From: a virus
Length of the DNA stretch: 29,219 bases
IMG/VR virus record: IMGVR_UViG_3300025141_000531
Coordinates: 1 to 29,219 of that record
Reading direction: 5' to 3' (one strand)
Positions 1 through 28,565 of the stretch are shown here, piece after piece. The notes under the pieces are model-generated. The model was not told where the DNA came from. It ran no database searches and saw nothing but the letters and a program-made list of their open reading frames with translations. The stretch's first letter is position 1; the number at the start of each line of letters is the position of its first letter. A program made the translations under genes and the position numbers.

Positions 1-1235
1 GTTTCCATAAATATATTACCATCATCGTCTTTAGTAATCCCATCATAATTAGTTAAACTATCTAAAACACTATTAAACAAAGCTTCTTCCATTTCTTGGT
101 TATTAGGAAGTAGTTTTTGATAAGAATTTGCAAATCCTTCGTTTAACTTTTTCAAATCTATATTCCAAAAATTAGCTAATTGTTGAGGACCAGATTTAAC
201 AAGTCCAGCAACTTTTTGTTTTAATAAAGGTTGCATGGCTTTTTTCATAGCCTCAACGTTTAGTTTTTTTCTTAGAGAAGTTTTAGTATATCCTGCGTTT
301 AGATTTTCTGTAACTATCATATCTTCTACCCAATAGTCGTCTGAAATTATTCCTTTTTGATTTAAAATACCTAATCCATCTCCTTCTGGAGTTTGACCTT
401 GGGGTACTAATTTCTTAATAGTTTCATTAACAACTTGAGGAACAGATGAAACAAATCCAAAATCTTTACCTTCTCCAGTTCTAGCATTAAAAGCTCTAGC
501 ACTCATTATTTTTTCTCTATAAGGTCCTTCAGCCATCACCCCATCTTTTAATTCATGTTCATAGCCAGAAACCTTTATCATTACATCATTTTTTTCTTCA
601 TCATATACTATTTCAAAATTAGCGTCATCATACACTCCTCCTAAAGCGTTAACAAAATATTGATTGTTTGCTATTTCATTTTCATCATTTCCTATAATAG
701 TAATAGCTGATCCAATGGTTGGAGCTTTTTCTTCCCAATAAGAACCTAATGCAGTAAAATTAGTTATAGTATTTTTTGTTAATGCTAATAAATCATAATA
801 ATCTGATACTGCTTTTTGAGCTGATTTTCTTTTTTCTTTATCTCCATGCTGTGTTTTTAAATAAACTTGAGCTTGTGTAGCAATATCTAATCTTTTATGT
901 AAAGTAGCTTCTAGTTGATCTTGAACAGCTGAGGTTTGAGGAATAGTATTAAGATCACTCATTTGCTGTAAGTTCCACAAATCTGCATTTGTTTGAACTA
1001 GTTGCATTCTATCTATTAAAGCTTGATTTTCTTTATCTTCTAATTCTTTTTCTCTTTTTCTTTCCGCCTCTTGTAATTGTCTTAATTTATCTCCTTGTTG
1101 TAATACGTTTACCATTGCAGATGCAGGAGGTGCTACTTGTCCTCTACCCCCTGTTGGTTGAGAGTAAGCTCCATAGTCAACGTTAGGTAGTGTAACTCCT
1201 GGTAAAGGGTAGCTTGATTGTGCTTTTGTTGCCAT
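1..1235 (-). CDS. Putative internal virion / ejection (cargo) protein, 3' end cut by window edge
   Basis: An open frame starts at ATG 1235-1233 and runs about 411 codons to the left edge without a stop, so the C-terminus is missing. It begins MATKAQSSYPLPGVTLPNVD, followed by a Pro/Gly/Gln-rich stretch. A highly charged, probably coiled-coil part follows (residues about 45-75, rich in Arg, Lys, Glu and Gln), then a mixed helical part. No enzymatic motif is visible. The start is supported by the leader TAAATAAATT just before ATG and by its position right behind the 224-aa ejection-type gene. As the last gene of the tail block in a short-tailed phage, a protein carried in the virion and released with DNA is the best guess. 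That role comes from position and composition only, because I do not recognise a named family. Confidence 0.75.
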   Translation of the reverse strand, partial: MATKAQSSYPLPGVTLPNVDYGAYSQPTGGRGQVAPPASAMVNVLQQGDKLRQLQEAERKREKELEDKENQALIDRMQLVQTNADLWNLQQMSDLNTIPQTSAVQDQLEATLHKRLDIATQAQVYLKTQHGDKEKRKSAQKAVSDYYDLLALTKNTITNFTALGSYWEEKAPTIGSAITIIGNDENEIANNQYFVNALGGVYDDANFEIVYDEEKNDVMIKVSGYEHELKDGVMAEGPYREKIMSARAFNARTGEGKDFGFVSSVPQVVNETIKKLVPQGQTPEGDGLGILNQKGIISDDYWVEDMIVTENLNAGYTKTSLRKKLNVEAMKKAMQPLLKQKVAGLVKSGPQQLANFWNIDLKKLNEGFANSYQKLLPNNQEMEEALFNSVLDSLTNYDGITKDDDGNIFME

Positions 1236-1251
1236 AATTTATTTTATTTAT

Positions 1252-1373
1252 TTATCCTTCGTCGTAGTCATAATAATACGAATTGGGGTCGCTTAAACTT
1301 GCGTAATCATCATCTTCTTCTCCTGCGTTCAAGTCTGGACTTACGGAATTATTCCCGGCCGCTATCCCCCCCC
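1252..1373 (-). other. G8 slippery run and -1 frame extension (candidate programmed frameshift or phase-variable site)
   Basis: On the minus strand the 224-aa gene ends ATC GGG GGG GGA TAG, containing eight consecutive G (1366-1373). If one G is re-read (-1 shift), or if the run had nine or six G, translation continues for 37 codons: ATA GCG GCC GGG, then an Asn/Ser/Pro part, then an acidic, Tyr-rich tail ending YYYDYDEG before TAA at 1254-1252. This extension fills almost all of the 126-base gap to the next start at 1235. G GGG GGA fits the X XXY YYZ slippery pattern and is followed at once by the stop. A short GGAA/TTCC stem can form just downstream. Programmed frameshift, replication slippage and sequencing error cannot be told apart here. 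Confidence 0.6.
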
Positions 1374-2036
1374 GATTAAACCTCCTATACCTCCTACTAC
1401 TTGTCCTACTGAATTATACATTTGAGCTTCTGCTTGAGCCTCTGCTGCTCTAGTTGCTCTTAAATCTTGTTGAGCATTATCTAACATGCCTGCTGTTCTA
1501 TTAAGTTCAGCTACTTCTCTTTGTTCTTGAGTACCAAACATAAACTGTTTACCCATTACACCAGCTGATTGTAATCTTTGTTCTTCTTGCATTTTCATTT
1601 GATTCAATCTTTCTTCTCCTTGTGCGTAAAGTTTTTGGTTTTGAGCTTCTTGTAATTGAATACTACTAGAAACCTGTTTTTTACTTTGTAAAGCCGCTTG
1701 AGCTAAAGCTGTAGCTCCACCAGCACTAGCACCTGTAGATCGTAAAGTATCTAAAGTGTTAGCTAAAGATATATCTGCTTGTTCTGCTTGAAATTTAGCT
1801 GCTTCTGTGGCAACACCTAAATTAGCATAGGTATTAGATAATTGTCCACTTGTATCTGTTACATCCGCATATGGATTAATAATAGGTTGTCTGCTATTTT
1901 CTAATGCATCCAACTCACCTTCAAGACGAACTTTTTCATTTTGCGCTCTTCTTCTATCGTCTCTCGCTCTTCTTTGTGCGGCGCCTGCTCCCATGATGCC
2001 AATTGCTCCACTGACTACTCCTGATGCTGCTCCCAT
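1362..2036 (-). CDS. Small internal virion / ejection-type protein (T7 gp14-like features), 224 aa
   Basis: The protein has a Gly/Ala-rich hydrophobic N-terminus (MGAASGVVSGAIGIMGAGAA), a long Gln/Ala/Glu-rich helical body (about residues 20-205) and a Gly-rich C-terminus ending GGIGGLIGGG. Membrane-active glycine-rich ends around a long helix are typical of small ejection proteins of short-tailed phages. The assignment rests on this composition and on the gene's place after the nozzle genes, not on a recognised signature. The start lies 2 bases after the stop of the acetyltransferase-like gene. The annotated stop falls directly after a run of eight G. A -1 shift would add 37 residues with an acidic Tyr/Asp tail, so the true product may be about 262 aa, or both forms may be made. 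Confidence 0.7.
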   Translation of the reverse strand: MGAASGVVSGAIGIMGAGAAQRRARDDRRRAQNEKVRLEGELDALENSRQPIINPYADVTDTSGQLSNTYANLGVATEAAKFQAEQADISLANTLDTLRSTGASAGGATALAQAALQSKKQVSSSIQLQEAQNQKLYAQGEERLNQMKMQEEQRLQSAGVMGKQFMFGTQEQREVAELNRTAGMLDNAQQDLRATRAAEAQAEAQMYNSVGQVVGGIGGLIGGG

Positions 2037-2038
2037 AT

Positions 2039-2428
2039 TTATGAATATTTATATATTATGTTGTGTTTTTTATCTAACACTTTATAGTTTAATTTTATAG
2101 CTTTTTTTAACATGTTATCATTAGATGTAGTAGCCCAAACAAGTTTACAACCTTTGCTTAAAGCTTCTTCTACCATATGATCTATTAATGTTATTATTAA
2201 AGCATTTCTGTCTTTTTTCTTATAATTTATATTAGAAATAATAAAATCAAGATAAGCAATTTTTGAATTAGTATAATATACATATCCTGCTGCTACCTTA
2301 ATATTATTATTAATAATTACGTAACCTTTTTTAGGTAAACATTCTTTGTCTGGAATATTTAAACCCCAGTCTTCCCACCAATTAATGATTTCATTATCAC
2401 TAATAGTGTTGAATTTATTTATTTTCAT
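2039..2428 (-). CDS. GNAT-like acetyltransferase, small
   Basis: This 129-aa protein has the build of a minimal GNAT (Gcn5-related) N-acetyltransferase: beta strands around residues 35-65 (GYVIINNNIKVAAGYVYY and AYLDFIISNI), then a basic stretch KKKDRN where the acetyl-CoA pyrophosphate loop normally sits, a long helix, and a strand KLVWATTSN with a following LKKAIKLNYKV, resembling the GNAT C-terminal motif. The usual Q/RxxGxG/A loop is not clearly present, so acetyl-CoA binding is uncertain. It lies in the middle of tail and ejection genes, 5 bases after the preceding gene, so it should be made late with the virion proteins. Its target is unknown; a virion protein or host protein would both fit. 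Confidence 0.6.
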   Translation of the reverse strand: MKINKFNTISDNEIINWWEDWGLNIPDKECLPKKGYVIINNNIKVAAGYVYYTNSKIAYLDFIISNINYKKKDRNALIITLIDHMVEEALSKGCKLVWATTSNDNMLKKAIKLNYKVLDKKHNIIYKYS

Positions 2429-3764: not shown

Positions 3765-6700
3765 CTAAGCTCCAGGCCACCCACTTGTTTTGTACCACCA
3801 ATCAGTTACAAATGGTGGAGATCCAGTTGCAGGTTGAACTGGTTTAGGATCAACTGGGGCTGCAGGAGTCGCAGCATTAACATCATAATATATTTCAATT
3901 CCTGCTCCTCCATTACATGTATTTAAGCTAGTAAATGCTATTTTATTATTTATCCATACACAATTTCCAAAATCATAAGCAGCACCACTAGAATCTGTCC
4001 CTTTATCTCCTGGAACTACTCCGTCAGTAATTTGTTGAGCAGTAGGATTAAAAGGTTGTAATGTACCAATTAATTGCCACGTGGTAGTAGTACCACTATA
4101 ACTCATATTAACTGCTGCTCCTAAAGCAGCTGTACCATCACCTTTTGCTGGAGAATTAGAATTTTGAGTATTTTCTCCATTCCAAGTTACTTGAAAACTA
4201 GAAAGAGCAGTAACTGTACTATCACCTGGTCTAAATACATTACCAATCTTTACATATATATTTATTGGTACACCAGCATTATATTCCCAATTTCCAATTT
4301 CTCCAACCCATGTAGGTAGAACTGGAGTAGAATATTGAGTATCACATCCTGCATACATGTTCACCGCTGGTCCATTAAATTCATTAGCAGTTGCGGCAGG
4401 ATTATTATTATAAAAGTTAATTCTTACCCCTGTATATCTAGCAGCTTTAGGAGTCCATTGTACTGTAATAGTTTCACTAGCTCCCGTAGAATTTAAATCA
4501 GTTAGTTTCATTATTAGTTCTTGAAGAGTAGCTTCATATTGAGAATTATAAGTAGATAAGTTTCTATTTACTTTAACACCATAAAAATTAGTATTACTTC
4601 CCGTAGTACACGTTGTTTGATTTTGAGCTGTTTGCTCTTGTATTAACATATAATAATCAATATCAGTTGACGTGGGTTCTCCAGTAGGATTTTGACCTGT
4701 TATATAATCTCCCCATACACCTAAAGTATTTTGATATCTAAATGATTCAATAGACCATTGTATATCTTGAGTTCTTTGACATGGATTAGCACTTCCATTG
4801 TATCCTTTTAATACTCCTGGTCCATTTCCTGGGCCTGGACTTAATCCTCCTGGAGGAGTATATCCTACATAATTTAATATTTCTTTATCAGCTATTTCTG
4901 GAGCTGGAGCTAAAGATAAATCACATATAGGTTTATCATTAATTAAAGTACGTGTGATAGTTTGATAAGAAACATTACCATCGTTTTGAGTGAATTCAAT
5001 CTTTATTTGATATTTTTCTAAATACTCAAAGTTAATTAAACAAGCTCTTTCTGCTCCTACTTTTAACTGTAAGTAAAAACCTCCTCCTCCAGCGCTTACA
5101 ATATTAAATAAGGATATACTAGGTAAGGCGGGTTGACCATCAGAATCATGAATAAGAGTTTCTACAACAGAAGCTGTACTTGTAGTATCATTACCTTGAG
5201 GAGTTACAGGCCAAAATGTAGTTGTAATTTGAGTATTACCAGCATCTCCCTCATTGAACAACCAAGTAAAAGGAGATATTCCTGTTATTCGAGTTCCCTC
5301 AGATGTTATTGCATAATTTAAATCAGATATTAAACCACTTGTAGAAGTTTCCCAAAATAAATCTAATTGAGAAACTACAGGTGCAGTTTCATATACAGAT
5401 AATCTCATATATGCTGGGTAATCTGGTCTTCCTGCTACTGCGGCTGTATTAAAAGACGTTTGTATTAATCCAATACTTTTTTGAGTATTAACTTTAGCAA
5501 TAAAAGGTTTTGAATCGACATCATAAATAGCGTTAGTATTTAATTTATTATCAGTACCTGTTGGTGCAGCAGCATAAGTTATATCAGGAAATACATCTTT
5601 TATTCCTCCAATTAATTCTACGCCATCAGGATTTATATTAGGAGAATATTGAGCGTTTCCTGGAGTAGTTTCTTCATTTGTTACTCTTCCCCAACACATT
5701 AAATCACTGTTAAATTGTGTGTCCTGATTACTTACGTTTTTTAACTGTCTAGGAACTTTATTTATATTATCATGTGTTAATACCATAAAAGCAGTACTAC
5801 CTACTTCAGTTGTATTATCGCCAATAGGATAACCATCTATGATTCCAGGTAAATATACGTTATAAAACTCTTGTTGTTGTTGTTTTACTACTAATCTATA
5901 AGAATAAAACCCCATTTCATTAATAGCATATACATAGTTAGTATAATCGTCAGCTATTACAGGTTCTGGATATACAGTGCTAGCTAGAGTTAAGAACATA
6001 TAACTGTCAGCTATTTCCTCATAAGTATAAATATTAAGAATATTATTTAACTCTGGATCTACTTGTCTTTCTATTTTAACATAATCCTGATATTTTCCTC
6101 TTAATTCTTTTCCTACTGCAAACAAATCTTTTGATGTTATTAAATCAGCAGCAGCATCTCCAGTAGTAGGAATATATGATAATGTATAATAATATTCACC
6201 ACTTGTAGTATCTGTATTGTATTTTAATTCTGCTTTTATTTGTTGATTTAAAGGCAATGCAGTATTTAAAGTAACTTTTAATCTACCGTTAGTTGGATCT
6301 GTTGGTGTAGAAGATGCAGCAGCTGTATATGTAGCTGGAGCAATAACAACCCATCCTGATCCATCGTTAGAATATAAATTAAAAGTATTAGCAGCTGCTT
6401 GAGTATCAGTATAATTAATGCTTCCGAAAAAATATCCTAAATCTGCAGTTAAACTACCAGTGAATAAAGTAAGAACTACATTTGTACTACCTCCTATTAC
6501 AGTTCCCGCAGCAATAGTAAAAGTATCTCCTGCTATATAACCTGTTCCTGCTGTTGCTAAAGTTACACTAGTTACAGCATTACCAGTAATAGTTATTTCA
6601 AAACTTGCTCCTGATCCTGCTGAAGAACTTGTAGTCCAACCTGTAGTAGTACCAGGAGTTCCTGAATAATCCCCATTTGTTCCATCAGAAGTATTAGTAG

Positions 6701-8855
6701 TAACGTTTGCAACTGCTAAAGTAGTTATTCTTGATCCTGTAGTATCTAAGATTTGAGTTGAATAATTTTTAAAATAAGAATATGGTGCTCCACTAGGAAC
6801 TGCTACTGTATATTGTTCTGGAACAGCATATAATCCCGCATTATTTCCATTTACATTTATAGCACTATCAAATCTTACAGATAATTGCTCACCTTGCCAT
6901 CCAGACAACGTACTAGCATTTTCTACTGGTCTATAGTTAGAAAAATAATTAGATCCTTCTGTAGGTTCTCCTCCTGCTACTAATACATTGTCTTTTGAAG
7001 AAAGTATAACATCTGTTTGTCTTCCCCATTTATCTGCTAAAATTACTCCTACTTGGTAATTTCTATTTTCTTTTACAGAATGTTGAGGATATTCTTCATA
7101 TTCTTGATTATCTTTATCTTTCTTGTCTACCGCATAATCTAATCCTAAAGGAGCGTTATAACCCTGTATAAAGTTTCCATACATTACTCTATTACCTGCG
7201 ATTTCTTGAGATAAAGCTCTTACTGGAACTTTATCATAAACTCTAGTAGTTTCATCAGTAGGTAAAGTTTTATAAGGAATAGTAGATTGGTAAGTATATT
7301 GATAAACATTAGTGTTATTAAGATTAGATATAAAGGTAGTATCTACAGGTACACTTTGTAATACCCTGTAAGTTAAAGAATCAGATTCTTTATATATAAT
7401 ATCTATTTCTTGTATTTTATAATCATTTATAATATCTAAAGAAGGGAGTTCAATATTTAATATAACATTGTTAATATTATTTTGCATAAACTCTACTATT
7501 GTAGATGTCATTGTGTCATCTTCATCTTCATTAACAAACTTTCCTTCTTGTTGAGGAACAAAACACTCTTGTGTAAATGGAGCAATAAGAGAATATTCAC
7601 CATCATTATATTTAAATCTATAACTAAATCTTATAAATTTATCTTTCATTAGTTCGGGATCACCTTGCCAACCTTTAAAACCAGAATCTTTTATTACTCT
7701 AACCGCTCTTCCTTGAAGATTAGAACTAGATGCTTGATTACTCGGTGCAGATCCACTGTCTAAAATTTGAAAATATTTATCTACTCCTTTAATCCAAAAT
7801 TCTCCATGTGTATTAATGTTTTGAAAATCTGCTACATCACTAGTAGCTATTCTTTCTCCAGAAGGTAAAGCATTAAAGCCTAAACTGTTGTTTGTTATAA
7901 GAGATGTAGCTGTCCAATATGCTGTTGATTTAATATCTGCTACTGTTCGTCCACCAGCTGTAGTATAAGTCTTAAGAGCAGTATAATTAGCTTCAGTAGC
8001 TAAAGTATATCCATAAGGGGCTAAGTTTCTTGAATCTTCTACAGCCCATTTATTATATAATTTTCCATATATAGCTCCATTATCATAATCATTATTATAA
8101 TAACACCATGCTCCTACCTGTCTAGTATTTGCATTTACCCAATCTGCCCATGTAGTTGCGTGTTCTATTAAATCTCCATTTCTATATCTAGTTACATTTA
8201 AATTAACTGTTGCCCAATTTAATGCGTCTATTAATATAGTAGGAACAGCAGTTTCATCACTCATTGTACTTGGAAGAGTAGAACTAACACTTCTTAAATC
8301 TACTAATCTTGGTGCTTCATATGGAGAATATTTACAAACAGTTATATCTGATTCATCAGTGTAATAAGTTTTCCCAGAACCACTAGGGCTTGCTGTTTGA
8401 ACATTAATAACTCTTGGTTGATTTCTATTATCTGTCCAAAATAAAAGATTTTCTAATAAATTTACTCCATGTATAGGAGCTTGAGTAGAAAAATTAAGAA
8501 AATGACCTTCTACTAAAACATCTGGGGTATTTGACCCTGAACTAGGTGACCATCTACATATTTGACAAGTATTAGTAGTGGCAATATCTTGACTTAATGT
8601 TCCTGAAAAATCTGTTAAAAAATAGTATATAAATCCACCAGCTTGATCCACATAGTTACCTATAGTTTCTAAAGAACCAGCACTAGAAAACACAGCTTCA
8701 TTACCTAAAATTGCTTCTAAAGCTCCTACGTCTTGGTTTTCAGATCTAGAAACTGCAATATTATTAGCATCTCTGTATTCATTATTTGGAATTAGTCTAT
8801 CATCTAAGTCTTTATTCATTTTAGACTTAATGAAACTATTTTTATTTTCTGCCAT
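3765..8855 (-). CDS. Giant tail nozzle/muzzle-type protein with inserted FISUMP domain, 1696 aa
   Basis: This is the largest gene of the window. The N-terminus (residues about 10-55) carries SKMNKDLDDRLIPNNEYRDA and DVGALEAILGN, a signature I associate with large tail proteins of marine and crAss-like short-tailed phages. Residues about 213-391 form a FISUMP domain inserted before the next conserved block, KFIRFSYRFKYNDGEYSLIA (about 406-425). TRVYDKVPVRALSQEIAGNR follows (about 537-556), and a Gly-Ser-Gly-Tyr-type module lies near 722-800. The last third is beta-rich with a Gly/Pro-rich linker and a Trp-rich end. The gene sits two bases after the second ring protein and before another nozzle-type gene, so the product probably forms the tail nozzle. 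The inserted modules are candidates for host-surface contact. Confidence 0.75.
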   Translation of the reverse strand: MAENKNSFIKSKMNKDLDDRLIPNNEYRDANNIAVSRSENQDVGALEAILGNEAVFSSAGSLETIGNYVDQAGGFIYYFLTDFSGTLSQDIATTNTCQICRWSPSSGSNTPDVLVEGHFLNFSTQAPIHGVNLLENLLFWTDNRNQPRVINVQTASPSGSGKTYYTDESDITVCKYSPYEAPRLVDLRSVSSTLPSTMSDETAVPTILIDALNWATVNLNVTRYRNGDLIEHATTWADWVNANTRQVGAWCYYNNDYDNGAIYGKLYNKWAVEDSRNLAPYGYTLATEANYTALKTYTTAGGRTVADIKSTAYWTATSLITNNSLGFNALPSGERIATSDVADFQNINTHGEFWIKGVDKYFQILDSGSAPSNQASSSNLQGRAVRVIKDSGFKGWQGDPELMKDKFIRFSYRFKYNDGEYSLIAPFTQECFVPQQEGKFVNEDEDDTMTSTIVEFMQNNINNVILNIELPSLDIINDYKIQEIDIIYKESDSLTYRVLQSVPVDTTFISNLNNTNVYQYTYQSTIPYKTLPTDETTRVYDKVPVRALSQEIAGNRVMYGNFIQGYNAPLGLDYAVDKKDKDNQEYEEYPQHSVKENRNYQVGVILADKWGRQTDVILSSKDNVLVAGGEPTEGSNYFSNYRPVENASTLSGWQGEQLSVRFDSAINVNGNNAGLYAVPEQYTVAVPSGAPYSYFKNYSTQILDTTGSRITTLAVANVTTNTSDGTNGDYSGTPGTTTGWTTSSSAGSGASFEITITGNAVTSVTLATAGTGYIAGDTFTIAAGTVIGGSTNVVLTLFTGSLTADLGYFFGSINYTDTQAAANTFNLYSNDGSGWVVIAPATYTAAASSTPTDPTNGRLKVTLNTALPLNQQIKAELKYNTDTTSGEYYYTLSYIPTTGDAAADLITSKDLFAVGKELRGKYQDYVKIERQVDPELNNILNIYTYEEIADSYMFLTLASTVYPEPVIADDYTNYVYAINEMGFYSYRLVVKQQQQEFYNVYLPGIIDGYPIGDNTTEVGSTAFMVLTHDNINKVPRQLKNVSNQDTQFNSDLMCWGRVTNEETTPGNAQYSPNINPDGVELIGGIKDVFPDITYAAAPTGTDNKLNTNAIYDVDSKPFIAKVNTQKSIGLIQTSFNTAAVAGRPDYPAYMRLSVYETAPVVSQLDLFWETSTSGLISDLNYAITSEGTRITGISPFTWLFNEGDAGNTQITTTFWPVTPQGNDTTSTASVVETLIHDSDGQPALPSISLFNIVSAGGGGFYLQLKVGAERACLINFEYLEKYQIKIEFTQNDGNVSYQTITRTLINDKPICDLSLAPAPEIADKEILNYVGYTPPGGLSPGPGNGPGVLKGYNGSANPCQRTQDIQWSIESFRYQNTLGVWGDYITGQNPTGEPTSTDIDYYMLIQEQTAQNQTTCTTGSNTNFYGVKVNRNLSTYNSQYEATLQELIMKLTDLNSTGASETITVQWTPKAARYTGVRINFYNNNPAATANEFNGPAVNMYAGCDTQYSTPVLPTWVGEIGNWEYNAGVPINIYVKIGNVFRPGDSTVTALSSFQVTWNGENTQNSNSPAKGDGTAALGAAVNMSYSGTTTTWQLIGTLQPFNPTAQQITDGVVPGDKGTDSSGAAYDFGNCVWINNKIAFTSLNTCNGGAGIEIYYDVNAATPAAPVDPKPVQPATGSPPFVTDWWYKTSGWPGA
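6456..6692 (-). other. GSGY-type beta module inside the giant tail protein
   Basis: Residues about 722-800 are Thr/Ser/Gly-rich and include SSAGSGASFEITITGNAVTS followed by LATAGTGYIAGDTFTIAAG. The pattern (GSGA, strand, GxVTSVT, AGxGYxxGD) repeats in the 185-aa protein at 20734-21291 (for example TTGAVTAVAINAAGSGYKLGD). Such modules are frequent in phage fibre and decoration proteins. I infer an accessory surface domain. Confidence 0.65.
7683..8222 (-). other. FISUMP (Fibrobacter succinogenes major paralogous) domain in tail protein
   Basis: Residues about 213-391 show the FISUMP order of motifs: WCYYNNDYDNG, IYGKLYNKWAV, LAPYGYTLATEANYTALKTY, GGRTVADIKSTAYW, LGFNALPSGER, a Gly/Phe/Trp stretch (GEFWIKG), and a closing GRAVRVIKD (TIGR02145-like). 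The family is abundant in secreted proteins of Bacteroidota and Fibrobacterota and belongs to a C-type-lectin-like fold group also used as phage variable domains. The flanking tail sequence resumes right after it (MKDKFIRFSYRF), so it reads as an insertion. Binding of a host-surface ligand is inference. Confidence 0.8.
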
Positions 8856-26321: not shown

Positions 26322-26768
26322 TTATCTATTTTTATCTATATTTACATTATCAATAGAAGTTCTTAAAACTTTATTACTATATGTATTTTTTCTCATTATA
26401 ATATTTCTTCTTTCGCTTGTAGGAATATCTTCGTATCCTAACATTATTTTATATATTTTATTTATAAGCTGCTTTCCTTTAAAAGAAACTTTATAAATAT
26501 TGTATTTTTGAGTAGTTCTATTACGATTCCTCCATACTACTACCCATTCATTTTTAATAAGTCTACTCCATCTTTTCTTATCCCAACTGTAAGAATAAGA
26601 ACCTTCTTTAAAATCTTTTATAGTAAAAAGATTTATACAATCTAAATATATTAATAATTCTAAATCAGCGTTATTTAAGCCGTTGTTTTTACAAGCCCAT
26701 CTGCGTATTATACGGTAATGTTTAAGTAGATTAAGATTTTTTAAATCTTCTACGTCTAGCCTTTTCAT
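26322..26768 (-). CDS. Basic winged-helix-like protein (putative DNA-binding), 148 aa
   Basis: Basic and aromatic: LKHYRIIRRWACKNNGLNNA, DLELLIYLDCINLFTIKDFK, WDKKRWSRLIKNEWVVVW, then RNRTTQKYNIYKVSFKGKQL and INKIYKIMLGYEDIP. The order helix, helix (LELLIYL), recognition-like helix (WSRLIKNEWVVVW), and a beta-wing (KYNIYKVSF) resembles a winged helix-turn-helix of the MarR type. It overlaps the GroES stop by the 4-base ATGA, so it is coupled to the chaperonin operon. Regulation of late genes is a guess from fold and position. Similar proteins exist in marine phages to my recollection. Confidence 0.6.
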   Translation of the reverse strand: MKRLDVEDLKNLNLLKHYRIIRRWACKNNGLNNADLELLIYLDCINLFTIKDFKEGSYSYSWDKKRWSRLIKNEWVVVWRNRNRTTQKYNIYKVSFKGKQLINKIYKIMLGYEDIPTSERRNIIMRKNTYSNKVLRTSIDNVNIDKNR

Positions 26769-27028
26769 AAAACAACGACCACATCTTGTGATTTTATAAC
26801 ATGATATGTATTATTTTCTACTTCAATTTTATGACCTGCGTGGCGATCAAAATAAATAACATCATCTTTATTTAATCCATTTATTTCATCACCTACAGAT
26901 AAAACTGTAGCTTTTGTATATCTAATATCTTCTTTATTTTTTTCAGTCAACAATAAACCACCTTTTGTTTTAGTAGTTCCTTGTTTAGCTTTTTCTATTA
27001 TTAAATTTCTACCTATTGCCTTCATCAA
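26765..27028 (-). CDS. groS: GroES co-chaperonin, 87 aa
   Basis: Lid of the GroEL folding cage. It has the Cpn10 order: start strand MKAIGRNLIIEKAK, mobile loop TTKTKGGLLLTEKN with GGLLL in place of the GroEL-binding GGIVL, KATVLSVGD, LNKDDVIYFDRHAG, then YHVIKSQDVVVVL. It is shorter than bacterial GroES: between VLSVG and DDVIYF there are about 8 residues, against roughly 17 in the E. coli protein, where the roof hairpin lies. T4 gp31 also lacks this roof. It overlaps the 3' end of groL by about 20 bases; the start could be the second Met (27025). The ATGA end couples it to the next gene. The order groL then groS is reversed from the bacterial operon. Confidence 0.93.
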   Translation of the reverse strand: MMKAIGRNLIIEKAKQGTTKTKGGLLLTEKNKEDIRYTKATVLSVGDEINGLNKDDVIYFDRHAGHKIEVENNTYHVIKSQDVVVVL

Positions 27029-28565
27029 CTCTTAAATTATTAATTACACAATCTGTAGATAAAATAGTAGTAGCTACTGAAGCTGCATTTTTTAAAGCAC
27101 TTTTAGTTACTAATAAAGGATCTATTATTCCTGTTTTAACCATGTCAACAATTTCTCCATTTAGAACATTTGTTCCATATCCATCTTCTGCAGGTATTGT
27201 TATTTCTTCAACTCCAGCATTTAATAAAATAATCTTATATGGTGATAATATAGACGCTGTTAATATTTTTTCTCCTTGATTTTTTTCATCTACTTTCATA
27301 GCTGCGTTTAATAAAGCTACTCCTCCTCCGGGGACTATACCTTCTTTTATTGCAGCTTTTGTTGCACAAATAGCATCTTCAGCTCTATCAAGTTTCTCTT
27401 TTAATTCTACTTCAGAATCCGCACCTATTTTTACAACAGCAATTTTAGCAGCTAATCTTGCTAATCTTTTTTCTAAACTTATAATTTTCTCTGGAATCTT
27501 ACAAGTTTTTAATTCTTTTTTTAATTCTTTAATAATATTTAAAGTTTCAGGTTTAGTGTTTTGTATTTGGATTATTGTTTCATCTATACTAGTAACACTT
27601 TTAGAACAAGTACCTAAAAAATCAATATCTATAACGCTCATATCATCTCCTAAATCTTCATTTATTACAACAGCGTTAGTTAATAAAGCAATATCATCTA
27701 ATATTTGTTTTCTCTTTATACCTAATACCGGAGCTTCAATTACATTAACTTTAATATTACCTTTAGTTTTATTCATTGCTAAAGCACTTAAAACATCAGG
27801 TTCTAAATCTCCTATAATTAAAAGAGATTTTTTGTTTTTAATAATATATTCTAGAACACTTTGTATTTGTCTAATATTAGATACTTGAGAATCAATAATA
27901 AGAACAAGTGGATTATCTAGTTCTGCAGTCTTTTTTTCTTTATTAGTTATAAAATGAGGACTAGTAATTCCTTTTGGATATTGAGCTCCATCTATTATTT
28001 CTACTTTAGTTTCTCCTGAAACTGAAACTTCCATCATAACTACTCCTGTTTTATCTACTTCTCTAAAAGCATCAGCTATTAATTTTCCTAAAACTTTATC
28101 ATTATTAGTAGATATAGTAGCTACATTATCTAGCATTTTATCTTCAACAGGTATAGATATATTATCTAAATATTTTAAAACTTTTTTAACAGCTGAATTT
28201 ATACCTTCTTTAATTTCTCTTACATTTTTTTTATCTAAAACCTCATAAGCTTGTTCTAAAATTGCATGTGCAAGTACTGTTGCAGTTGTTGTCCCGTCTC
28301 CAGCTTCTTGTACGGTTTTTTTAGCAGCTTGTTTTAGTAATGTAGCACCCATGTTTTCAACAGGATCTCTTAATATTATATTTTCTGCTACAGTAACACC
28401 ATCTTTTGTTATAATAGGATTACCTCCTTTATCTTCAAGTATTACACACTTACCGCTAGCTCCTAATGTGGAGCTAACAGCTTTAGTGAGTTTTTCAATA
28501 CCTTCAAATATTTTGGTCTTAGCTTTGTTGCCAAAGTTAAGATTTTTAACTATCATATTTGACAT
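27009..28565 (-). CDS. groL: GroEL-type chaperonin (60 kDa), 518 aa
   Basis: ATP-driven folding cage. The equatorial domain has TLGASG (33-38; usual Pro is Ala), PIITKDGVTVAENI (catalytic Asp55), GDGTTTATVLA (89-99) and AEDAICATKAAIKEGIVPGGG (Asp397). Late equatorial segment: IIDPLLVTKSALKNAASVA. The apical domain (about 190-375) is diverged: the Tyr and Phe sites of substrate binding read GITSPHFI, and the conserved APGFG is APVLG. The protein ends CVINNLRVDEGNR and lacks the Gly-Gly-Met tail. All ATPase residues checked are present, so it should be active. It lies upstream of structural genes, so capsid protein is the likely client (inference). Phage-encoded GroEL is uncommon. Confidence 0.97.
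   Translation of the reverse strand: MSNMIVKNLNFGNKAKTKIFEGIEKLTKAVSSTLGASGKCVILEDKGGNPIITKDGVTVAENIILRDPVENMGATLLKQAAKKTVQEAGDGTTTATVLAHAILEQAYEVLDKKNVREIKEGINSAVKKVLKYLDNISIPVEDKMLDNVATISTNNDKVLGKLIADAFREVDKTGVVMMEVSVSGETKVEIIDGAQYPKGITSPHFITNKEKKTAELDNPLVLIIDSQVSNIRQIQSVLEYIIKNKKSLLIIGDLEPDVLSALAMNKTKGNIKVNVIEAPVLGIKRKQILDDIALLTNAVVINEDLGDDMSVIDIDFLGTCSKSVTSIDETIIQIQNTKPETLNIIKELKKELKTCKIPEKIISLEKRLARLAAKIAVVKIGADSEVELKEKLDRAEDAICATKAAIKEGIVPGGGVALLNAAMKVDEKNQGEKILTASILSPYKIILLNAGVEEITIPAEDGYGTNVLNGEIVDMVKTGIIDPLLVTKSALKNAASVATTILSTDCVINNLRVDEGNR

Follow-up and report, generated by a model that had tools for sequence, protein, structure and literature searches.

Programmed frameshifting is known for the capsid, major tail and tail-chaperone genes of phages. 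In phage lambda the ribosome shifts by -1 at the site GGGAAAG, close to where a late gene ends, to give the G/GT pair. The long form of this and other tail assembly chaperones is an assembly chaperone with a tape-measure-binding part, whereas the locus described here would attach a short hypervariable tail to a virion-type protein. Likeness of another kind is offered by the phage capsid and tail cases covered in a review of frameshifting: in gene 10 of T7 and T3 (major capsid proteins 10A/10B) -1 frameshifting at the gene's 3' end lengthens the C-terminus of some virion subunits, and phages A2, A118, A500 and PSA also carry frameshifted C-terminal extensions of a capsid or tail virion protein (PMC5009743). 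None of these is an ejection protein, however; gene 10 encodes a capsid protein, its T7 site starts with G_GU and is stimulated from a distance (PMC5009743), and the proteins of the other four phages are capsid or major tail proteins, the A2 extensions being Ig-like.

Ejection genes are ordered gp14-gp15-gp16, the small ejection proteins reviewed have 181-240 aa, and the gp14 of T7 assembles into a hexameric pore in the outer membrane of its host (PMC8954989). Frameshifting is not mentioned in that review (PMC8954989), the words 'internal' and 'ejection' are absent from the main text of the PRFect paper (PMC10885494), and the literature searched contains no report of frameshifting in ejection proteins, subscription papers lying mostly outside the search and absence being no proof. 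On the established sequence layout, its recurrence, the coding homology of one -1 tail and the hairpins present in most loci, we propose that a gp14-like ejection protein gene very probably undergoes a programmed -1 ribosomal frameshift at its 3' end.

The predicted slip site and its gene

The window, that is the whole stretch of viral DNA analysed, comprises 29,219 bases of 31.5% GC (positions 1 to 29,219 of IMG/VR record IMGVR_UViG_3300025141_000531). The features needed here are the following, L003 being a related contig from a separate assembly:

2039 to 2428, minus strand: preceding gene, acetyltransferase-like by synteny (phrog_17252), a context marker
1362 to 2036, minus strand: short-form gene (224 aa), probable gp14-like internal virion (ejection) protein, from the open reading frame, the matching ends of relatives and a fold match
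1366 to 1373, minus strand: run of eight G (C8 on the plus strand), read directly, of equal length in L003
1365 to 1371, minus strand: slippery heptamer G_GGG_GGA, in phase, read directly
1362 to 1364, minus strand: 0-frame stop TAG, immediately 3' of the heptamer, read directly
1344 to 1357, minus strand: weak candidate stimulatory hairpin CGGGAAUAAUUCCG, 7 nt past the heptamer, dG about -3.2
1252 to 1365, minus strand: -1 frame tail, 37 codons plus TAA, predicted for the long form only, its frame conserved in L003
3 to 1235, minus strand: next gene, in gp15-like position, truncated at the edge of the window (about 608 aa in L003)

Direct reading confirmed the layout and coordinates given in an earlier note on this DNA, namely eight G followed by a hidden -1 extension of 37 codons that closes before the next start. 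The focal gene (2036..1362, minus strand, 224 aa) ends GGT TTA ATC GGG GGG GGA TAG, and the -1 frame entered at the heptamer reads IAAGNNSVSPDLNAGEEDDDYASLSDPNSYYYDYDEG, its 37 codons occupying 1365..1255 and its TAA 1254..1252, shortly upstream of the ATG at 1235. Joining the 0-frame to this acidic tail (10 D/E, zero K/R) would give a predicted product of 261 residues. The note had also judged the run improbable in an AT-rich genome, and it is indeed the sole run of at least seven G or C in the window, for a chance expectation that we estimate at about 0.02 runs of eight per window; in these genes, about 0.1% of codon positions carry a strong heptamer in phase. Taken alone, the open -1 frame of 37 codons is moderately unusual (shuffle p = 0.069). 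Readthrough of the stop was rejected as a source of the tail, the next in-frame stop coming after six codons. Separate initiation was rejected as well: five of the ten -1 frames described below contain no ATG, GTG or TTG, and the single TTG of the window's frame is absent from L003.

The identity of the protein relies on position and fold. At an E threshold of 0.001 the window protein matched neither a Pfam family nor a PHROG, and PDB searches by sequence and by fold likewise gave no match. The 224-aa protein is modelled (pLDDT 77) as a helical structure in which one long helix spans residues 105 to 221. In fold comparison the model comes closest to a protein from an uncultured virus named 'Internal virion protein' (E 3.4e-5, TM 0.71); several weaker, non-significant matches bear the same name. 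The locus runs from a large tail gene through a smaller gene, the acetyltransferase-like gene and the focal gene to the gene of about 608 aa and then an open frame of more than 1300 codons, the last two being read in L003; this order parallels that of phage isolate ctfjg026 and Elemovirus and agrees with the gp14-gp15-gp16 order, and 224 aa fits the size range of small ejection proteins (PMC8954989). T7 gp14 and P22 gp7 are of similar size, and their genes likewise precede a gp15-like gene and a very large gp16-like one (PMC8954989), but no sequence match to the focal protein was found for them. Elemovirus gp20 and PANI_CDS0072 of Maribacter phage Panino are syntenic virion structural proteins of cultured Bacteroidetes phages, with only marginal sequence similarity. 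The description 'ejection-type protein' made in the earlier note agrees with gene order and fold but lacks sequence-family support, and the focal protein is probably gp14-like, a membership that sequence does not prove.

The protein in the major-capsid position of the window has relatives in phages of Flavobacterium, Cellulophaga and Maribacter, which makes a Bacteroidetes host likely. Elsewhere in the window a GroES-like gene (26765-27028, recognized by eye) adjoins a GroEL-like gene (27009-28565; Cpn60_TCP1, E 3.5e-58).

Long gaps and slippery heptamers among relatives

Scanning IMG/VR with the window gene returned 13 relatives. Seven near relatives (L002 and L004-L009, 84-87% identity) have the same end point, with a TAA directly before the next gene, a gap of 1-10 nt and the tail DNA missing; the tail thus looks like an added cassette, and the tail-less form is the common state in this group. 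It had been proposed beforehand that the tail would be refuted by relatives that share the stop and have no extension. Taken literally, these seven are such relatives, but the tail DNA itself is absent from them and, as they run straight into the next gene, they point to an acquired cassette rather than to an untranslated tail. L003, on the other hand, has the G8 run, the TAG and the tail frame all as in the window, with one codon deleted by an in-frame 3-nt indel and a handful of substitutions (88.9% identity of the tail frame).

The comparison of these two contigs is informative about the origin of the insert. Around it about 50 nt before and about 80 nt after are identical, whereas identity falls to 84% over the whole gene and to 73% over the opening 120 nt of the gene that follows. 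Because the DNA adjoining the insert is identical on both sides, window and L003 count as one origin and not as independent cases. In the tree L003 clusters with the tail-less L005, and the window with the other near relatives; we infer that the cassette was transferred by recombination. Over window positions 1160-1420 (minus strand) and L003 positions 6620-6870 the insert differs by 9% between identical flanks, the surrounding genes differing by 16-27%, which looks like recombinational cassette exchange with the tail itself varying. Viral scans for the window tail, as DNA or peptide, returned the contig of L003 only.

The wider set consists of 144 distinct relatives from further viral scans and one genome scan. 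The gap was taken from the stop of the focal gene to the next start and called long at 50 nt or more: it is below 50 nt in 132 of the relatives measured, and ten members, the window included, have real long gaps, as listed here with heptamer and downstream hairpin (kcal/mol):

L175: 59 nt, AAAAAAG, weak predicted hairpin
L155: 90 nt, GGGAAAG, -7.6
L057: 91 nt, GGGAAAG, -8.1
L195: 102 nt, GGGAAAT, weak predicted hairpin
L095: 104 nt, GGGAAAC, -6.8
L186: 117 nt, GGGAAAG, -12.1
L156: 122 nt, GGGAAAC, -6.9
L003: 123 nt, GGGGGGA, weak predicted hairpin (-1.8)
window: 126 nt, GGGGGGA, weak predicted hairpin (-3.2)
L105: 162 nt, GGGAAAG, -4.5

A strong in-phase heptamer lies within the last three codons in all ten long-gap members versus one of the 132 short-gap ones (L196). 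The association has a Fisher p of 1.7e-13 for strong motifs, the spurious L110 being entered as one exception, and of 4e-11 when any X_XXY_YYN motif is counted, both values applying to relatives gathered by similarity and not at random, and to a gap threshold and strong-motif list set after the data had been seen. L110 was rejected as an eleventh long-gap member, its next gene beginning about 30 nt downstream and being broken; at L110:3593-3730 that gene is interrupted after about 45 codons, or there is an assembly error. The -1 frame spans the gap in 10/10 loci and leaves about 7-30 nt to the next ATG, which is the usual spacing. Shuffle p values for the individual open -1 frames are modest (0.04 to 0.29), so the weight rests on the joint pattern. 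When 571 non-redundant genes from all these loci and three cultured phages were scanned, exactly these ten qualified. In Panino, elemoF and ctfjg026 the syntenic gene adjoins its downstream neighbour directly and has no frameshift layout; tblastn of cultured phages with the window protein and three relatives gave no match, and searches of 395 and 396 whole genomes yielded almost no additional relatives.

Hairpins point in the same direction. In six of the ten loci a stable one (-4.5 to -12.1 kcal/mol) begins 3-6 nt downstream of the heptamer, the best among 134 control genes being -2.8, so that no control has a stable one, and the combined shuffle p for the ten loci is 5e-7. The hairpin of the window is not significant alone (shuffle p 0.097). 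Of the shift motifs in E. coli, GGGAAAG and AAAAAAG belong to the strongest, and GGN codons in the A site on average shift less than AAN (PMC4066793), a ranking that is applied here to a probable Bacteroidetes host assumed to translate likewise. The case for frameshifting is therefore stronger for the family than for the window's own site.

Proposed ribosomal frameshifting and its rivals

Ribosomal frameshifting, the first option that the earlier note had offered, draws strong support from the eight further loci, in more distant relatives, which use heptamers other than the G run at the same position of the gene. The layout recurs in nine independent settings, and our best reading of the sequences is that it arose repeatedly. 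In the tree it is scattered, with at least ten changes, six of them forced by well-supported branches; this scatter may reflect repeated gain and loss or exchange, and the tree fits either.

That the tails are read as protein is suggested by L057, whose -1 tail (...RPPVEVGEEWGSYTPSL) shares 13/16 residues with the C-terminus that a close relative, L062, encodes in frame (...KPPTEVGETWGSYTPTL; E 1.7e-9), and by the survival of the L003 tail frame through a 3-nt indel. An untranslated insert, either a regulatory RNA or a decayed segment whose -1 frame is open by chance, could appeal to the shuffle p of 0.07 in the window and to insert copies that differ at several bases where the close flanks do not, but it is scarcely credible against a -1 frame that fills the gap in 10/10 loci, a tail homologous to a translated one and a frame kept through an indel.

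The rival that survives best is transcriptional slippage, in which RNA polymerase would add or drop a G on the G8 run and the identical two protein forms would arise at a different step. Eight identical bases are long enough to consider it, examples occur among bacterial genes and IS elements (PMC5009743), and the weakness of the window's own heptamer and hairpin leaves room for it at this site. It is nevertheless unlikely, since the eight other loci use GGGAAAN or A_AAA_AAG instead of long homopolymers and the hairpins stand at ribosome spacing.

Two further options raised in the earlier note found no support. In some bacteria phase variation works through G tracts, and here the frames would fuse with 6 or 9 G, so that a tract changing in length between virus generations would switch the tail on, and off at 8 G. 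This is very improbable: exactly 8 G, with a coding-compatible tail behind them, occur in both assemblies, and the other eight loci have no G tract. Still less probable is a sequencing or assembly error in the run, the true gene being a single frame of 262 codons; homopolymers are error-prone and in-frame tails do exist in L062 and L116, but L003, whose focal gene is 16% different from that of the window, yet retains both G8 and TAG, and the other loci show an equal frame offset in ordinary sequence free of long homopolymers.

A possible variable tail on a minority of pore subunits

Under programmed -1 ribosomal frameshifting, most ribosomes would stop at the TAG and release the 224-aa protein, and a minority would slip on G_GGG_GGA, re-pair there and continue for another 37 codons; the resulting 261-aa form would carry the acidic tail beyond a Gly-rich C-terminal segment. 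Slippage would have to occur at a useful rate in the host and both forms would be expected to enter the virion, where tail-bearing subunits might make the ejection pore suit a particular partner or the host surface. By analogy with T7, this minority could present a variable peptide from the pore, and a role in partner- or host-specific contact fits tails that are variable and exchanged. It is tempting to speculate, as a tentative view that we hold at somewhat short of even confidence, that short-tailed marine Bacteroidetes phages have repeatedly evolved -1 frameshifting to place a hypervariable, exchangeable tail on a minority of DNA-ejection pore subunits; slip site, hairpin and tail would travel between phages together as a cassette and act as a tunable module of host or partner specificity. 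If this were true, the ejection machine would be built from two subunit forms in a ratio set by the ribosome. Ordinary gene finders call the short form only and miss the tail, and the gains and losses scattered through a single protein family would constitute a natural experiment on the origin of recoding sites.

A shared origin of all tails was rejected, the -1 tails being mutually unlike except for those of the window and L003. L116, 84% identical to L057, has an unrelated acidic in-frame tail GDTSDDQEDPNQ, which indicates fast tail turnover, and other close relatives of L057 (L099, L051) have no tail. The in-frame C-termini of L124 (2492-3451) and L139 (2501-3454) resemble the Peptidase_S74 intramolecular chaperone in sub-threshold matches, and that of L174 shows a likeness of the same type by eye. 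This chaperone is normally found on tail fibres and is odd for an internal virion protein; such ends suggest that the C-terminal end of the protein hosts swappable modules.
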